This document shows, one piece after another, positions 14,782 through 27,784 of a DNA stretch of 42,672 nucleotides. Source of the stretch: a bacterium. Its GTDB lineage: Bacteria; Actinomycetota; Acidimicrobiia; Acidimicrobiales; RAAP-2. The stretch is taken from contig DAHXOD010000002.1 in the NCBI GenBank assembly GCA_027365055.1, positions 1-42,672 of the forward strand, in the 5' to 3' direction. The stretch's first letter is position 1, and each line of letters starts with the position of its first letter. A model generated the notes under the pieces. The model ran no database searches. It had not been told where the DNA came from and saw only the letters and a list, made by a program, of their open reading frames with translations. Both the position numbers and the translations under genes were made by a program.

Positions 14782-15531
14782 TTACCGGAAGCGGTCCATC
14801 GCAGCGTCGACCACCTGTTGGCTGGGGGGATGGCTGAGCGGCGTCGACGCCTGGCGGTCCGCGACCAGACCGTCGAGGATGAGCGTCATGTATCGCTTCC
14901 AGAGGTCGGGGTCGTTCACCCCGACGTAGTCGGCGACGGCTCCGAGCATGGTCACCAGCATCGGCACGTCGTTGACCACCACGTCCGGTCGCAGGGTCCC
15001 CGCCGCCTGCGCCCGCTCGACGATGGCCGTGAGGAGGGGAGTGACGATGTCGCGGAGCCGGGAGGTGTCCGCACTCGCGAACTCGCTGTGCAGCAGCACA
15101 TCGCGCAGGCCTCGGTTGCCGACCTGCCATTCGAGCGCCTGCTCGACGAAGTGGACGAAGCCTTCCCACGGGTCGTCGAACGTCGACGCCGCATGGGCGA
15201 GTACGACGATGTTCTCGATCTTGTCCTCGAACAAGGCGCCGACGAGTGCCTCCTTGTTGGGGAACCGGCGGTATACCGTCCCCACCCCGACGCCTGCTGC
15301 CGCGGCCACGTCGTCGAGGGAGGCGTCGAGGCCCCGTTCGGCGAACACCTCGGCGGCCGCGGCCAACACCTTCTGGCGGTTGCGTTCGGCGTCGGCCCGC
15401 AACTTGTGGGTCGCGCAGCTGCAGTCGGTGCCGTCGGACGCTCCGGCGCCACCGACGGCTGGTGGGGAGGCACCCGCGGCCGGCTCGGGAGGCACGGGCG
15501 GCTCCCTCGGGGGGCTGGTTCGCTGATTCAC
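14782..15531 (-). CDS. TetR/AcrR family transcriptional regulator
   Basis: NRQKVLAAAAEVFAERGLDASLDDVAAAAGVGVGTVYRRFPNKEALVGALF (TetR HTH). Confidence 0.96.
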   Translation of the reverse strand: MNQRTSPPREPPVPPEPAAGASPPAVGGAGASDGTDCSCATHKLRADAERNRQKVLAAAAEVFAERGLDASLDDVAAAAGVGVGTVYRRFPNKEALVGALFEDKIENIVVLAHAASTFDDPWEGFVHFVEQALEWQVGNRGLRDVLLHSEFASADTSRLRDIVTPLLTAIVERAQAAGTLRPDVVVNDVPMLVTMLGAVADYVGVNDPDLWKRYMTLILDGLVADRQASTPLSHPPSQQVVDAAMDRFR

Positions 15532-15556
15532 GGAATATCCATCCTACGTCGGTGTT

Positions 15557-15624
15557 GAAGCGGAGGAGATACCTCCGTATGGTGCTACCGTAGTACCTGA
15601 AGCGGAGAACATACCTCCGGATGA
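15557..15624. promoter_or_regulatory. Candidate TetR operator array: two 26-bp direct repeats flanking a near-palindrome
   Basis: TGAAGCGGAGGAGATACCTCCGTATG (15557-15582) and TGAAGCGGAGAACATACCTCCGGATG (15599-15624), with GGTGCTACCGTAGTACC (15582-15598) between; lies between the divergent TetR and MFS genes. Confidence 0.75.
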
Positions 15625-15673
15625 GAATCGCTCGCCTCGACGGGTGTGGGCATGTCTCGACCGGGATGGGCAG

Positions 15674-17251
15674 ATGAACAACCAGAACGTCAGTGTGCAA
15701 AGGAGACGTGCCATGGCAAGCCACGAGTCGAACGAGCCGGCCGGCATCCCGTCGGCGTCCCTGAATCCCCACCACGACCGACGGTGGCTGATCTTGGCCG
15801 TGCTCGGTCTCGCCCAGCTCATGGTCGTGCTCGACGCCACCATCGTGAACATCGCCTTGCCCACCGCGCAGCACGCCCTCAGGTTCTCCGATGCCGACCG
15901 TCAGTGGATCGTGACCGGGTACGCGCTCGCCTTCGGCAGCCTGCTGCTGCTCGGAGGCCGCCTCTCCGACATGATCGGTCGCAAGCGAGCCCTGATGATC
16001 GGTCTCAGCGGCTTCGCCGTGGCCTCGGCGCTCGGCGGGTTCTCGACCAGCTTCGCCATGCTGTTGGCGGCGCGAGTGCTCCAGGGATCGTTCGGTGCAC
16101 TGCTGGCCCCCGCAGCGTTGGCCATGTTGACCACGACCTTCACGGATCCGTCGGAGCGCGGACGGGCGTTCGGCATCTACGGAGCCATCGCCGGCGGTGG
16201 TGGCGCCATCGGCCTTCTGCTCGGAGGGTTCCTGACCTCCTACGTGTCGTGGCGCTGGACGCTCTTCGTGAACCTGGCGATCGGCGCGGTGGCGATCGCC
16301 GGCGCCGCTGTGCTGCTGTCCAACAGCCGGACCACCGCCCGCCCCCGCCTGGATCTGCCGGGTGTCTTCACTGCCACCGCCGGCCTGTTCGCACTCGTCT
16401 ATGGGTTCTCCCACGCGGAGACCACCTCGTGGGGGGACGCCTACACCGTGATCAGCCTGGCGGTCGCCGTCGTGCTGCTCGTGGTGTTCGTGGCCATCGA
16501 GCGGCGGGTCTCCCAGCCGCTCCTGCCCTTGCGGATCGTCGTCGATCGGAACCGCGGAGGTGCGTTCATCGCCATGTTCGCGGCCGGTGCCGCGATGTCC
16601 GGCACCTTCCTCTTCCTCACCTACTACATGCAGGGCACGCTCCAGTACTCGCCCATCGTGACCGGATTCGCCTACCTGCCGCTGATCGTCGGGCTGATCG
16701 GTTCCGCCCAGGTCGCCACCAACGTGCTGCTTCCGCGTTTCGGACCCAAGTTCATGGTGGCCATCGGCATGCTGGTCGCCTCGTTGGCCATGGTGCTGCT
16801 CACCCGGACCGGGCTGCACTCGAGCTATGTCACGGTGCTGCTCCCCGCGCTGGTCATCCTCGGCGTCGGGTTCGGACTGATCATGGCCCCGTCGATGAGC
16901 GTCGCCACGCTCGGGGCGGCACGAGATGCCGGGGTCGCGTCGGCCATGGTCAACACGACCCAGCAGGTCGGCGGTTCGATCGGCACCTCGCTGCTGAACA
17001 CCCTCGGCGCCAGCGCGGCCGCGGCCTTCGTGCTCGGCAACCACGCGACGGTGACCTCGTCCACGCTGCTCCAGGCGGAGGCCACCGTGCACGGGTACCA
17101 CTCGGTGTTCTCGTACTCAGCCGTGTTTCTGGCGGTCGGCGCGGTCGTCGCCGGCCTGTTGCTGCGGCGGGGAGCCATGGCTGCGCTGGCGAAGGAGGCC
17201 GGCGGGGGAGAAGGCAGCGACGAAGCGGAGAACGTGCTGGTGGTGGTCTGA
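15674..17251 (+). CDS. MFS transporter, DHA2 (14-TM) drug exporter family
   Basis: Polytopic; MVVLDATIVNIALPTAQHAL, GGRLSDMIGRKRALMIG, ARVLQGSFGALLAPAALAMLTTTF. Start may be 15644, 15674 or 15713. Confidence 0.95.
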   Translation: MNNQNVSVQRRRAMASHESNEPAGIPSASLNPHHDRRWLILAVLGLAQLMVVLDATIVNIALPTAQHALRFSDADRQWIVTGYALAFGSLLLLGGRLSDMIGRKRALMIGLSGFAVASALGGFSTSFAMLLAARVLQGSFGALLAPAALAMLTTTFTDPSERGRAFGIYGAIAGGGGAIGLLLGGFLTSYVSWRWTLFVNLAIGAVAIAGAAVLLSNSRTTARPRLDLPGVFTATAGLFALVYGFSHAETTSWGDAYTVISLAVAVVLLVVFVAIERRVSQPLLPLRIVVDRNRGGAFIAMFAAGAAMSGTFLFLTYYMQGTLQYSPIVTGFAYLPLIVGLIGSAQVATNVLLPRFGPKFMVAIGMLVASLAMVLLTRTGLHSSYVTVLLPALVILGVGFGLIMAPSMSVATLGAARDAGVASAMVNTTQQVGGSIGTSLLNTLGASAAAAFVLGNHATVTSSTLLQAEATVHGYHSVFSYSAVFLAVGAVVAGLLLRRGAMAALAKEAGGGEGSDEAENVLVVV

Positions 17252-21995: not shown

Positions 21996-23567
21996 TCAGG
22001 TCCACGGGCCGGAACCGGCCGCTCGATGCAGGGCGTCGACGAGAACGGGAACCGACGCCCGCAGCTCTGCGTACACCTGATCGGCGTTGGGGTCCACGGT
22101 CACGGCGGGACCGTCCCCTGGATCTCCGGCCAGTGAGCGGAAGGCGGCCTCGAGGTCGCGCTGGTACCCGAGCGCGACCAGTCCCAGAGCCGCGGCGCCC
22201 AGTGCGGTGCCCTCGGTCACCGCGGAGACCCGGAACGGCCGTCCGACCATGCCGGCGACCACTTCGGTCCACAGGACGGACCGGAAGGCCCCTCCGACCC
22301 CCCGGATCGAGGTGACCGGACCCACCCCGTCGAGCCGATCGAGCCGATCGACGACCAGCCGGAGCTGCAGAGCGACGCCCTCGACGGCGGCCCGGAGCAA
22401 ATGGGCTCGGGTGTGGCTGCTGCGGAGCCCGACGAAAGCACCGGCCAGGTCGGGATCAGCGAGCGGCGAGCGCTCCGGCAGCAGGTACGGGAGCAGCGCC
22501 AGCCCGTCACTTCCGGGTGGGACGGTGGCAGCCAGTTCGAGTGCAGCCTGTTCGAGTGCGCCCTGTTCACCCCCGCCAACCCCACCCCCGCCAACCCCAC
22601 CCCCGCCCGGGGTGGGGCTGGGAAGCAGGGCACGTGCGGCCCACCGGGCCACGGCGGCCCCGTTGCTGACTGCACCGCCGACCACCCACAATGAGTCGGT
22701 CAGTGCGTAGCAGAAGAGCGCACCGTCGGGATCGACCACCGGTGAGTGCACGGTGAGTCTGACCGCGCCACTGGTGCCGAGCGACAGCCCGGCGACTCCC
22801 GGGGCCAGGGCGCCGGCACCGACGTTGCTGAGGGGACCGTCGGCGGCCCCGGTGACCACCGGTGTCCCGGCGGGCAGGCCGGTCTGACTGGCGGCCGACG
22901 GCCCGAGTGTCAAGCGGTCGGTCGTCCCCGCGATGTCGGGGAGTTGCGCCACGCGGATCCCGCAGAGCTCGGTCGCGGTCGCGCTCCACGACCGCGACCC
23001 GAGGTCGACCAGACCGGTGCCCGAAGCCGACGAGATCTCGGTCACCAGCGTGCCGGTCAACCACCACAGCACGTAGTCCTTCAGGCCGGCCCACCATCGT
23101 GCGCCGGTCAGCAGCTCGGGACGGTTCTGCGCGAACCAGAGCAGCTTGACCAGTGGCGTCATCGGATGGACCGGGACCCCGGTACGGGCGTGGATGTCGC
23201 CGGCCTGCCCGGCGGCGTGGAGCTGACGAGCCTGATCGGCTGCCCGGGCGTCTGCCCAGGTCAATATCGGCGTCAGCGGTCGGTATGCCACGTCGAGCGC
23301 GACCAAGCCGTGCATGGCCGCGGCGACGGACACGCCGACGACCTCGCCGGACCCGACCGCGTGGGCGCATTCGGTGAGCGCCCCGGCCACCGATCTGAGT
23401 ACGACGGCAGGGTCGTGGCACGCCGGATCGGGCGTCGTACCCAGAGCCGAGTAGTCGCGGACAGCGAGGTGACGCCACCCCGAGGTCGTGGCGAATGCCA
23501 CGGCTTTGACAGCGGTGGTACCGACATCGAGCCCGATCACGACGCCAGCCGCGGAGCCGGCGGTCAT
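21996..23567 (-). CDS. gntK: FGGY-family sugar kinase, gluconokinase-like
   Basis: MTAGSAAGVVIGLDVGTTAVKAVAFA...AAMHGLVALDVAYRPLTPILTWADARA...RTGVPVHPMTPLVKLLWF (gluconokinase-like 'TGxPxHPMxPLxKLxW')...SLGTSGAVRLT...IRGVGGAFRSVLWTEVVAGMVGRPF. Confidence 0.88.
   Translation of the reverse strand: MTAGSAAGVVIGLDVGTTAVKAVAFATTSGWRHLAVRDYSALGTTPDPACHDPAVVLRSVAGALTECAHAVGSGEVVGVSVAAAMHGLVALDVAYRPLTPILTWADARAADQARQLHAAGQAGDIHARTGVPVHPMTPLVKLLWFAQNRPELLTGARWWAGLKDYVLWWLTGTLVTEISSASGTGLVDLGSRSWSATATELCGIRVAQLPDIAGTTDRLTLGPSAASQTGLPAGTPVVTGAADGPLSNVGAGALAPGVAGLSLGTSGAVRLTVHSPVVDPDGALFCYALTDSLWVVGGAVSNGAAVARWAARALLPSPTPGGGGVGGGGVGGGEQGALEQAALELAATVPPGSDGLALLPYLLPERSPLADPDLAGAFVGLRSSHTRAHLLRAAVEGVALQLRLVVDRLDRLDGVGPVTSIRGVGGAFRSVLWTEVVAGMVGRPFRVSAVTEGTALGAAALGLVALGYQRDLEAAFRSLAGDPGDGPAVTVDPNADQVYAELRASVPVLVDALHRAAGSGPWT
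22571..22607. repeat. 15-bp tandem repeat (CCCCGCCAACCCCAC, about 2.5 copies) inside the kinase CDS
   Basis: Encodes GGGGVGGGGVGGGEQG insertion; minus strand is G-tract rich. Confidence 0.9.
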
Positions 23568-24955
23568 GGTGCGGCGTCCTGGCTGAACTGGCGGCACTGG
23601 TCGACGATGGCCTCGACGACCGGCACGTCGTCGGCCAGGGCGGGATCCAGGGTCGTGAGCACCCGGCGGGCGGCGACGGGGAGGGGGCCGTTCACGAGGG
23701 AGGTGAGTCCCGGTGACTGACGGGCGATGCCGGCTGGTCTCCGATCGCGCAGGCAGTGGATCCACGCGGCGATCACCCGGGTGGCACCGGTGGGAAGGCG
23801 ACCGGCCTTCCGCTCGGCCTGCAGGACCGGCAGGACCCGCACCGGGATCTTGGCCGAGCCGTCGATGGCGATCTGGTCGAGCCGGTGCTCGATCCGGCGG
23901 TTGGAGAAGCGTTCGAGCAGCAGCGAGCGATAGGCAAGCAACACGTCTGGAGCATGGCCGATGTGCGGGGAGGCGTCCGACCACCACTCCTCGACCCACG
24001 CAAGGACGGCACCGTCGGCGATGGCTCCGGCGACGGTGGTGTGGCCGCGGGCGCTCCCGGCATAGGCCAAGAGCGAATGCGCCCCGTTCAGGAGCCACAG
24101 CTTGCGGTGCTCGTAGGGCGCAATGTCGTCGGTGAAGGTGGCTCCGGCTTCTTCCCAGCGGGGGCGTCCCGCGGGGAAGGCTCCGCTCAGCACCCACTCC
24201 GCGAACGGCTCGGTGACCACGGGGCACCGGTCGGTCCGGCCGGTCAGCTCGAGCACGCGGCGGCGGTCCCTGTCGGTGGTCGAGGGGGTGATCCGGTCGA
24301 CCACCGTGGTGACAGTGGCGAGCGACCCGTCGATCCAGGTCGCCAGTCCCGGGTCGAGAGCACCGGCCATATCGAGGACCAGGCGGCGGGCGACGACGCC
24401 GTTGGCTGCCAGGTTGTCGCAGGGCACGAGGGCGACTGGTCCGCCGCCGGACCGGCGGCGCGCTGCCAGGCCGGCCACGATGCGGGCCGGAACGGTGGAG
24501 AGCGCGCCATGCGGACCGCGCCGGAGCGTCGCCAGATCGGACTGAATGTCCGGGCGGTCGAAGTCGAGCCCGCCACCAGAGGCGACGGGGTAGCCGTGCT
24601 CGGTGACCGTGGTGGTGATCACGGCGAGGTCCGGCGCACCCCAGCAGGCCTCCCAGGCATCGCGCTCGTCGGCACCGCAGCACTGGGAGATGCTGGCGAC
24701 CACCTCGGTCCGATCGGCGTCGTCCCCTCTGACGATGAGGGTGTAACGGGAATCCTGGTCGTTGAGCTGTTCGACCAGCAGGTTGCCGGGATGCCCGGCG
24801 AACGCGGTGAACTGCCACTGCTCGGTGTCGCTGGCATGGTGGGTGTACCACGCCTGGTGGGAGCGGAAGAAGTGCCCGAGCCCGAGGTGCACGAGCCGCG
24901 TCGGGGAAGCCGGGTGGTCGCCTGGTACGCCACGGAGCGCTGGGCGATCGGTCAC
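23564..24955 (-). CDS. uxuB: Mannitol dehydrogenase family protein; probable D-fructuronate reductase (mannonate oxidoreductase)
   Basis: VTDRPALRG...RLVHLGLGHFFRSHQAWYTH...YTLIVRGDDADRTEVVASISQC...VVARRLVLDMAGALDPGLATWI...YEHRKLWLLNGAHSLLAYAG (K-x-x-x-x-N-x-x-H). GTG start overlaps the uxaC stop by 4 bp. Confidence 0.87.
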   Translation of the reverse strand: MTDRPALRGVPGDHPASPTRLVHLGLGHFFRSHQAWYTHHASDTEQWQFTAFAGHPGNLLVEQLNDQDSRYTLIVRGDDADRTEVVASISQCCGADERDAWEACWGAPDLAVITTTVTEHGYPVASGGGLDFDRPDIQSDLATLRRGPHGALSTVPARIVAGLAARRRSGGGPVALVPCDNLAANGVVARRLVLDMAGALDPGLATWIDGSLATVTTVVDRITPSTTDRDRRRVLELTGRTDRCPVVTEPFAEWVLSGAFPAGRPRWEEAGATFTDDIAPYEHRKLWLLNGAHSLLAYAGSARGHTTVAGAIADGAVLAWVEEWWSDASPHIGHAPDVLLAYRSLLLERFSNRRIEHRLDQIAIDGSAKIPVRVLPVLQAERKAGRLPTGATRVIAAWIHCLRDRRPAGIARQSPGLTSLVNGPLPVAARRVLTTLDPALADDVPVVEAIVDQCRQFSQDAAP

Positions 24956-26373
24956 AGCTTGAACACCGTGGTCGGTAGCGTCGTGACGAGATGGATCGCG
25001 GTGTCCACCGCCTCGTCCTCGTCGAGCCGATGCTCGGCGACCAGGCGGGCGAGGACCCCGGCGTCCACCCGGCGGGACAGGTCGTGTCGGGCGGGGATCG
25101 AACAGAACGCCCGGGTGTCGTCGACGAATCCCGACGTGCGCCGGAAGCCGGCCGTCTCGGTGACCGCACTGTGGAATCGACGGATTGCGTCGGGCGCATC
25201 GAGAAACCACCACGGGACACCGACGTACACCGAAGGGTAGAAGCCAGCCAGGGGCGCCAGTTCGCGTGACCATGCGGTTTCGTCGAGGGTGAACACCACC
25301 AGATGAAACCCGGGGTGGGTCCCGAAACGGCGGAGGAGCGGCGCCAGCGCGTCGGTGAACTCGGTGCGGATGGGGATGTCGCAGCCCACGTCCGGTCCGA
25401 AACGCTCGAAGGTGGGTTGATGATGGTTGCGGCGAACCCCGGGGTGCAACGTCATCACCAGCCCGTCGTCGCACGACATGCGGGCCATCTCGAAGAGCAT
25501 GTGGCGGCGGAACGCCGCGGCTTCGGCAGCGCTCACGTCTCCGGCGAGGGCTGAGTGGAAGATCCGGGACGCCACCGCGTGGTCGAGGGGTTCGGTCCGG
25601 ACGTCGAGATGGCTGTGGTCGGCGGCCACCGCCCCGTGCGCACGGAAGGTGCGGCGGCGGGCCTCCAGCGCCCGGAGGTAGCCGTCGTAGTCGGCGGTGT
25701 CGAGTTCGGCGGCGGTGCCGAGCCGAGCGACGGCCTCGGGCCAGTCCGGCCGTGCCGGATCCAGAGCCCGGTCGGGCCGGAAGGTGGGGATGACCCGGCC
25801 CGACCAGGTGGGGTCGTCGGTCAACGCTCGATGGGCGGACAAGTCGTCCCACGGCTCGTCGGTCGTGGCTAGGACGGAGAGCCGGAAGCGCTGGTAGAGC
25901 GCGCGCGGGCGAAAGGCATCCTGGCCGAGGTGTTCAGCGATCTGGTCGTAGATCCGGTCGGCGGTGCGGGCGGATGGGCGGACCGAGCAGTCGAACAGCT
26001 CCACCAGCTCGGCTTCGAGCCACGTGCGGGCCGCGGTGGCGCGCAGCAGGTCCCAGTGCTCGCAGAGGTGTTTCCAGACCGATCGCGCTTGCGGTTCCGA
26101 CAGTGGGCCCGATGCGACCCCGAGGGCTCCGAGGTCGACGCCGTCGGCGTGAAGGAGCCGGGTGAGGTAGTGGTCTGCCGTCACCAGGAGGGTGGCCGGG
26201 TCGTGGAACGGCCGGTCGTCGACGAGCACCTGGGGATCGACGTGGCCGTGGGGGGAGATGACCGGCAGGTCGCAGGTGGTGGCGTGGATCCGCCGGGCGA
26301 TGGAGCGCTCGGCCGGGTCCGACGGGAAGAGCCGGTCGGGGTGCAGGGTGAGCCTCGGGTCGTCATCGTCCAC
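24952..26373 (-). CDS. uxaC: Glucuronate isomerase
   Basis: 473 aa; DLPVISPHGHVDPQVLVDDRPFHDPATLLVTADHYLTRLLHADGVDL, FRPDRALDP, HLDVRTEPLD, HPGVRRNHH: UxaC signature residues. Confidence 0.95.
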   Translation of the reverse strand: MDDDDPRLTLHPDRLFPSDPAERSIARRIHATTCDLPVISPHGHVDPQVLVDDRPFHDPATLLVTADHYLTRLLHADGVDLGALGVASGPLSEPQARSVWKHLCEHWDLLRATAARTWLEAELVELFDCSVRPSARTADRIYDQIAEHLGQDAFRPRALYQRFRLSVLATTDEPWDDLSAHRALTDDPTWSGRVIPTFRPDRALDPARPDWPEAVARLGTAAELDTADYDGYLRALEARRRTFRAHGAVAADHSHLDVRTEPLDHAVASRIFHSALAGDVSAAEAAAFRRHMLFEMARMSCDDGLVMTLHPGVRRNHHQPTFERFGPDVGCDIPIRTEFTDALAPLLRRFGTHPGFHLVVFTLDETAWSRELAPLAGFYPSVYVGVPWWFLDAPDAIRRFHSAVTETAGFRRTSGFVDDTRAFCSIPARHDLSRRVDAGVLARLVAEHRLDEDEAVDTAIHLVTTLPTTVFKL

Positions 26374-26494
26374 CGCCGTATGATGGAGTGGACCGGGAGG
26401 TGGCGCAACACGCTGGGAACGTTCGAGCCCTCGCTCGCCGGGAACATGCTGGTCACTGCCCTGTCGTGCTCCGAGCGGTGGTTGCCAAGGAAGG

Positions 26495-27784
26495 ATGCTG
26501 GTGCCGGGAACGGAAGCGGTGGTCAGTCCGTCGGGCGTCGCGCTGATCGGCGGTCCAGCGGGTTCCCTGGCGCCCGATCAGGTCAGGGCGTTCGTCCGCG
26601 AGCAGCTCGAGCGAGCCGACCTGCGCGGTCGCAGCGTGTGCGTGCTGGTGCCGGACGCCACCCGCACCTGCCCGTTGCCCCTGCTTCTTTCGTCGATCGA
26701 CGACACGCTGAGGGGTCGTGCCTCGCGGGTCACCGTACTGGTAGCGCTCGGAACCCACGCGCCGTTGGGAGAGCAGGCGCTGGCTGCTCATCTCGGACTA
26801 CCTCCTGGGCAGCTGGGGGCCCATGCCCCGAACCTCGAGGTCCGCAATCACGCCTGGTGGGAACCTTCCACGTTCGCCCCTGTCGGGACCATCTCCGCGG
26901 CGAGGATCGACGAGCTCTCCGGCGGGCTGCTGCGTCGTAGCGTCGATGTCGAGGTCAACCGGGCGGTGCTCGACCACGAGGTCACCCTGATCGTGGGCCC
27001 GGTGTTCCCCCACGAGGTGGTCGGCTACTCGGGGGGTAACAAGTACCTGTTTCCCGGCGTGTCCGGACGAGCCTTCATCGACGTGTCGCACTGGTTGGGA
27101 GCGTTGCTCACCAACGTCGCACAGATCGGCGTTCGAGGGCAGACGCCGGTCCGCGCCCTGATCGACGAGGCCGCCTCGATGGTCCCGGGCGAGCACCTGG
27201 CGCTCTGCTTGGTCACCGGCGTTGGCTCCGACGAACTGCACGCCGTCACCTTCGGCGATCCGGTCGAGGCATGGGATGCCGCCACGGCGGTGGCGGAGCT
27301 CACCCATGTCCGCCGACTCGACGCTCCCGTCCGCCGCGTGCTCGCATTGATCCCCGGTCGATACGCCGACCTGTGGACGGGAGCCAAGGGCTTCTACAAG
27401 GTCGAACCGGTGGTGGCCGACGGCGGTCAGGTGGTGCTGTTCGCACCGCATATCCACGAGGTCAGTGTCACCCATCCCCGGGTCCAAACGATCGGGTATC
27501 ACTGCCGTGACTACTTCGTCGGGCAGTGGGAACGGTTCCGGGACGAGCCCTGGGGGGACCTCGCCCACTCCACCCACCTGCGGGGCTCAGGTACCTACGA
27601 TCCCGTGCGCGGGGAGCACGATCGGCTGGTGGTGACACTCGCCACCGGCATTCCCGAAGACGTGACCCGGTCGATGAACCTTGACTATCTCGATCCGTCC
27701 GGGGTCGATCCGGCCGCGTGGGCGTCGGACCCGGACACGCTGGTCGTTCCCGATGCCGGCGAGGTCCTCTACCGGCTTCCTTGA
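26495..27784 (+). CDS. LarA-family nickel-dependent 2-hydroxyacid racemase/epimerase (DUF2088)
   Basis: ATG 26495 after AAGGAAGG RBS; VPDATRTCPLPLLL, VALGTHAPLGEQAL, IVGPVFPHEVVGYSGGNKYLFPGVSGRAFIDVSHWLG: positions matching LarA His108/His174/Lys184/His200. Confidence 0.93.
   Translation: MLVPGTEAVVSPSGVALIGGPAGSLAPDQVRAFVREQLERADLRGRSVCVLVPDATRTCPLPLLLSSIDDTLRGRASRVTVLVALGTHAPLGEQALAAHLGLPPGQLGAHAPNLEVRNHAWWEPSTFAPVGTISAARIDELSGGLLRRSVDVEVNRAVLDHEVTLIVGPVFPHEVVGYSGGNKYLFPGVSGRAFIDVSHWLGALLTNVAQIGVRGQTPVRALIDEAASMVPGEHLALCLVTGVGSDELHAVTFGDPVEAWDAATAVAELTHVRRLDAPVRRVLALIPGRYADLWTGAKGFYKVEPVVADGGQVVLFAPHIHEVSVTHPRVQTIGYHCRDYFVGQWERFRDEPWGDLAHSTHLRGSGTYDPVRGEHDRLVVTLATGIPEDVTRSMNLDYLDPSGVDPAAWASDPDTLVVPDAGEVLYRLP

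Follow-up and report, generated by a model that had tools for sequence, protein, structure and literature searches.

A predicted actinobacterial D-glucuronate pathway in which a LarA-type epimerase and a gluconokinase would bypass 2-keto-3-deoxygluconate

Four adjacent genes in the window, by which is meant the whole stretch of 42,672 nucleotides that was analysed, very likely form one D-glucuronate catabolic unit that avoids 2-keto-3-deoxygluconate (KDG) by passing from mannonate to gluconate (Table 1). In the proposed pathway, UxaC would isomerise D-glucuronate to D-fructuronate, the reductase would turn D-fructuronate into D-mannonate, the LarA-type NPN-dependent enzyme would epimerise D-mannonate at C2 to D-gluconate, and the FGGY kinase would convert D-gluconate to 6-phosphogluconate, from which a 6-phosphogluconate dehydrogenase (6PGDH) encoded outside the cluster would supply ribulose 5-phosphate to the pentose phosphate pool. 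Sequence evidence for this reading comes from the identity of the genes, the conservation of residues, the structure of the operon, and the repeated occurrence of the cluster with beta-glucuronidase, 6PGDH and NPN-biosynthesis genes.

The chemistry of the route had been proposed before and in part demonstrated in other bacteria. A mannonate to gluconate conversion was proposed for Thermotoga maritima by Rodionova et al. 2012 (as cited in PMC7583248 and PMC6978723), with UxaC, UxaD, GntE and GntK described as leading in the same way from fructuronate to mannonate, through a LarA homologue to gluconate, and through a gluconokinase to 6-phosphogluconate. D-Gluconate 2-epimerase activity was then demonstrated in 2020 for the T. 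maritima and C. glutamicum enzymes (PMC7583248). What is new here is a glucuronate-specific route, apparently the sole one in many actinobacteria, and a pathway context that bears on the dispute over which substrate actinobacterial GntE naturally acts on. Within the literature collection searched, no paper was found that describes or tests an actinobacterial glucuronate operon, and a search there for a glucuronate pathway of C. glutamicum found nothing.

Table 1 Features of the predicted glucuronate cluster in the window
Feature	Position	Strand	Basis
uxaC, glucuronate isomerase (D-glucuronate to D-fructuronate)	24952-26373	-	NCBIfam NF002794 and Pfam UxaC
Mannitol-dehydrogenase-family reductase, probably fructuronate reductase (UxuB role)	23564-24955	-	Pfam Mannitol_dh and Mannitol_dh_C; role by context
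FGGY-family kinase, probably gluconokinase	21996-23567	-	NCBIfam gntK_FGGY, 3GBT, context
LarA-superfamily NPN-dependent epimerase, GntE type, predicted D-mannonate to D-gluconate at C2	26495-27784	+	4NAR match, invariant residues
Promoter region from which uxaC operon and epimerase gene diverge	26374-26494	.	121 bp, operator half site

The earlier note had described four genes with two 4-bp overlaps and a divergent spacer, and all of these were reproduced at the same positions. The four open reading frames are intact, with no internal stops on translation. The uxaC stop overlaps the GTG start of the reductase gene in GTGA at 24952-24955, and the reductase stop overlaps the ATG start of the kinase gene in ATGA at 23564-23567. 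Genes for UxuA, KDG kinase and KDPG aldolase are missing from the cluster, as had been claimed. The kinase gene also contains a 15-bp tandem repeat (22568-22607, 2.7 copies), which encodes the glycine-rich stretch GGGGVGGGGVGGG.

UxaC scored 521 bits against the NCBIfam glucuronate isomerase model NF002794 (cut-off 387). The kinase, the reductase and the LarA-type protein are sure members of their superfamilies, and since none of them passes an NCBIfam equivalog cut-off, their exact substrates were assigned from context. The reductase reached 227 bits against the fructuronate reductase model UxuB (PRK15037, cut-off 603) and a slightly higher 242 bits against D-arabinitol 4-dehydrogenase (cut-off 600); its setting makes it probably a fructuronate reductase. 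For the kinase the best NCBIfam model was gntK_FGGY (TIGR01314), at 315 bits under an equivalog cut-off of 648.55, and the best PDB match was 3GBT, a gluconate kinase. A homologue with 48% identity adjoins gnd in genome G053. Context and the 3GBT match together indicate that the enzyme is probably a gluconokinase.

The best PDB match of the LarA-type protein, and its closest solved structure, was 4NAR (E 6e-50), which was deposited under the name putative uronate isomerase and is T. maritima GntE2, a D-gluconate 2-epimerase (PMC7583248). Members of the LarA superfamily are recognised by the Lar_N domain, the catalytic residues D72, H108, H174 and K298 and the NPN-binding residues R75, K184 and H200 (LarA numbering). 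In the window protein Pfam Lar_N scored 65 bits, and the equivalent residues D54, H88, H173, K298, R57, K183 and H199 are, together with T295, unchanged in every one of the 86 homologous loci. It has been reported that the hexonate-epimerising groups 18-20 share a signature of E-V/S after the second catalytic histidine and a tryptophan in helix 11 (PMC7583248); these correspond to E174 V175 and W294 of the window protein, which are likewise invariant in all 86 loci.

The superfamily and the hexonate signature are thus common to the window protein and to LarAH group 18, the "putative hexonate epimerase" group (NF052594). Membership of group 18 itself was rejected, because the window protein reached 143 bits with that model, whose cut-off is 500; its identity to a group 18 member from Catenovulum is 28% over 305 residues. 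The protein is probably a member or close neighbour of group 19, to which actinobacterial GntE1 belongs. The C. glutamicum member of that group (LarAH19/GntE1) is also a LarA homologue from an actinobacterium; it has D-gluconate 2-epimerase activity and lies in a uronate-related context (PMC7583248). The same paper showed that GntE2 converts D-mannonate to D-gluconate and gave KM values for D-mannonate of 17 mM for GntE2 and 120 mM for C. glutamicum GntE1. Given the latter value its authors doubted mannonate as the native substrate of the C. glutamicum group and proposed a different one. A further GntE member was reported from an oomycete in 2024 (PMC11770544). In the C. glutamicum genome, which served as a control, UxaC, LarC and 6PGD were present and UxuA was absent.

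The recurrence of the cluster was examined in a scan with one genome per species, which gave 80 named loci, all actinobacterial by title. The locus sets contain G003 under two handles, L015 and L022. Because related species are dependent samples, counts of this kind overstate significance. The closest congener, G003, has the same four-gene layout with 52-67% identity, and wherever uxaC and the epimerase gene are adjacent the pair is divergent (38/38); on these grounds chance adjacency was rejected. A different arrangement was found in G029, where uxaC, a beta-glucuronidase gene, the reductase gene and the epimerase gene form a single run, with a 4-bp overlap between the last two and a LacI regulator beyond. 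Since the glycosidase encoded inside this run scored 855 bits as a beta-glucuronidase, for which the cut-off is 544, glucuronate is marked as the substrate. In G014 uxaC and the reductase gene are convergent with the epimerase gene. Neither G014 nor G029 yielded a gluconokinase of the FGGY or the GntK family.

For a census of neighbours, all ORFs around the epimerase gene were clustered without preconceptions and representatives of the larger families were identified by HMM. Across 83 actinobacterial loci, the reductase was found in 52, uxaC in 50 and LacI in 38, followed by the beta-glucuronidase family (18), the FGGY kinase (16) and gnd (13). The NPN genes larB, larE and larC were neighbours in 26, 25 and 24 of these loci (about 30% each). 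Genes for UxaC, reductase, epimerase, kinase and gnd occur together in seven loci (L030, L056, L058, L059, L071, L074 and L075), which hold the whole predicted route from glucuronate to ribulose 5-phosphate; complete pathway clusters are present in the cultured genera Streptomyces, Knoellia, Modestobacter and Intrasporangium. The outline of UxaC, reductase, LarA-type epimerase and gluconokinase that the earlier note had drawn is supported by these recurrent neighbours as well as by the likeness to GntE2 and the signature residues, and the co-occurrence of uxaC, larA and gntK without uxuA, which it had expected, does recur in actinobacterial loci.

In its entry the actinobacterial pathway would differ from that of Thermotoga. 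Thermotoga also has the tagaturonate epimerase UxaE and UxuA, whereas none of the recurring neighbour families of the actinobacterial clusters was recognised as UxaE, and entry there would be from glucuronate via UxaC, with beta-glucuronidase neighbours. Galacturonate was rejected as the main substrate on the same two grounds, the recurrence of beta-glucuronidase and the lack of a recognised UxaE.

UxaC-encoding genomes with and without a close epimerase were compared. UxaC was found in 20 of 298 genomes of the phylum; besides the window's own genome, only one of the other 19 (G053) has a close epimerase, whose gene adjoins uxaC, and the LarA homologues of G161 and G199 are all distant ones. 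The surroundings of 19 control uxaC genes, from genomes lacking a close epimerase, held a single gntK and neither an FGGY kinase gene nor larC, whereas larC was present in 25 of 86 epimerase loci. A gluconokinase of either family was near uxaC in 19 of 52 epimerase loci versus 1 of 19 control loci (p 0.008). Apart from the window's genome, every epimerase genome tested (45 of 45) has LarC, versus 10 of 18 UxaC genomes without a close epimerase (p 1e-5). The expectation of the earlier note that NPN-biosynthesis genes accompany the epimerase therefore holds for the sister genomes tested, where they often adjoin it; in the window's own genome LarC was not found. This genome is a MAG of only 64% completeness, so the absences in it, that of LarC included, prove nothing, and an NPN supply in the window strain is presumed from its relatives. 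Growth on glucuronides would be tied in this way to nickel and NPN supply.

An independent link between epimerase and gluconokinase was seen in loci from a plasmid search in which LarAH group 18 genes are joined or fused to gluconokinase genes, with lar genes and uxaC nearby. On the Saccharobesus litoralis plasmid NZ_CP026605.1 (L130:7461-9230) a 589-residue GntK::LarAH18 fusion protein is encoded, whose N-terminal part scored 185 bits as gluconokinase (TIGR01313, cut-off 114) and whose C-terminal part scored 619 bits as LarA group 18 putative hexonate epimerase (cut-off 500). Its gene is followed by larE, larB, tagaturonate epimerase, gnd and uxaC. In Catenovulum adriaticum (NZ_CP109967.1, L132:7480-11760) the order is gntK-larA(group 18)-larC-larE-larB, with overlaps among gntK, larA and larC, downstream of uxaC and a TRAP transporter. 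The fusion likely gives group 18 a function; because these proteins belong to a different LarA group, the two loci back the logic of the reaction and not the identity of the window gene. The database record of the fusion protein names gluconokinase only.

The order of the last two enzymes is the point at which another reading has to be weighed. The FGGY kinase could act first, phosphorylating D-mannonate, so that the LarA-type enzyme would epimerise 6-phospho-D-mannonate to 6-phosphogluconate. Extracts of Lactobacillus suebicus do this (PMC6978723): its mannonate kinase and 6-phosphomannonate 2-epimerase likewise join the isomerase route to 6-phosphogluconate without KDG; phosphorylation precedes epimerisation there, the substrate is galacturonate, and the epimerase gene is unidentified. 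The same order would account for the 120 mM KM of C. glutamicum GntE1, measured with unphosphorylated mannonate, and the window kinase is far under the gluconokinase cut-off. Against it, three assayed GntE enzymes work on free D-mannonate, gluconokinases of both the FGGY and the unrelated GntK family turn up repeatedly beside the epimerase, which agrees better with gluconate as the substrate of the kinase, and the substrate loop carries an invariant acidic glutamate with no obvious fit to a phosphorylated ligand. We consider this order unlikely. It is similarly improbable that the actinobacterial LarA-type enzyme, working after the kinase in a glucuronate pathway that avoids KDG and is the only one open to many actinobacteria, is the missing 6-phosphomannonate 2-epimerase; if it were, the LarA family would include an enzyme that acts on a phosphorylated sugar acid. 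The context of the actinobacterial epimerase points to D-mannonate and D-gluconate, or to their 6-phosphates, and the native-substrate question of the actinobacterial GntE group becomes directly testable.

Whether the bypass would be the main route depends on the enzymes of KDG metabolism. UxuA was found in 3 of 45 epimerase genomes versus 4 of 18 UxaC genomes without a close epimerase (p 0.095). The earlier note had taken the absence of UxuA as explained by the bypass; the rarity of UxuA among epimerase genomes agrees with this, but as proof it was rejected, since UxuA is rare in actinobacteria with UxaC anyway (missing in 14 of the 18 controls) and the enzyme can have a substitute, the enolase-type mannonate dehydratase ManD, a family unrelated to UxuA that was above cut-off in 10 of 33 epimerase genomes. 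Both dehydratase families are missing in 21 of 32 epimerase genomes and KDPG aldolase as well in 12 of 32, among them G003, G014 and G029, the nearest sampled relatives of the window's genome, in which neither UxuA nor ManD was found either. None of the three proteins was found in the 64%-complete window genome itself. Because UxuA and KDPG aldolase are so often missing, the route looks like the only one in many actinobacteria. As expected, a 6PGDH-family protein was found in every one of 33 epimerase genomes; that of the window genome and its near relatives is of a short type, with a weak match in G014 and G029.

It is conceivable that a mannonate dehydratase, KDG kinase and KDPG aldolase encoded elsewhere carry the flux, the cluster serving to balance mannonate and gluconate pools. 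A dehydratase (UxuA or ManD) and KDPG aldolase do occur together in 11 of 32 epimerase genomes, and T. maritima, used as a control, also has UxuA; set against the 21 genomes without either dehydratase family, the lack of dehydratases and KDPG aldolase in the window's nearest relatives, and the same picture in the window genome, incomplete as it is, such an auxiliary role appears very unlikely. In the preferred reading, a bypass that carries the flux, a nickel-dependent epimerase would gain a physiological job, probably as a step on which the use of glucuronate by many actinobacteria depends, and the route would yield reduced cofactor and pentose phosphate and not pyruvate and triose phosphate, which is useful for metabolic engineering.

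A role of the epimerase on some other sugar acid (for example D-glucarate to D-mannarate, or another hexonate), with uxaC adjacency reflecting a looser association with uronate metabolism, was suggested for group 19 (PMC7583248) and would suit the 33 homologous loci without uxaC and those of the Actinoplanes type, but it is most improbable for the cluster, since the genes that recur beside it encode reductase, gluconokinase, 6PGDH and beta-glucuronidase, and no glucarate-pathway genes were recognised among the commonest neighbour families, of which representatives of the larger ones were identified.

In loci L057, L067, L082, L089 and L093, which come from Actinoplanes and its relatives, the genes that precede that of the epimerase are two of the Gfo/Idh family, one for a TIM barrel resembling xylose isomerase and one for an IolE-like protein. 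It lies several kb from uxaC there, and these genomes have ManD. The epimerase of these loci may serve another sugar acid.

A candidate for shared control was found in the divergent spacers. The palindrome GGCAANNNNTTGCC, with at most one mismatch, is present in 20 of 38 divergent uxaC-epimerase spacers (0.2 expected in shuffles) and in 0 of 37 coding controls, and in many cases a second half site, of the TTGCC type, comes after it. It is a candidate shared operator, which fits the recurrent LacI gene nearby. In the window the full operator was not found in the spacer, which has the half site GGTTGCCA only; for this reason the operator is treated as a feature of the family and is not carried over to the window, where the operon and the epimerase gene are presumably co-regulated. 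Elsewhere in the window (14782-17251), a TetR-family regulator gene is divergent from that of a DHA2-type multidrug MFS transporter, which scored 221 bits, slightly below the EmrB subfamily cut-off of 230.
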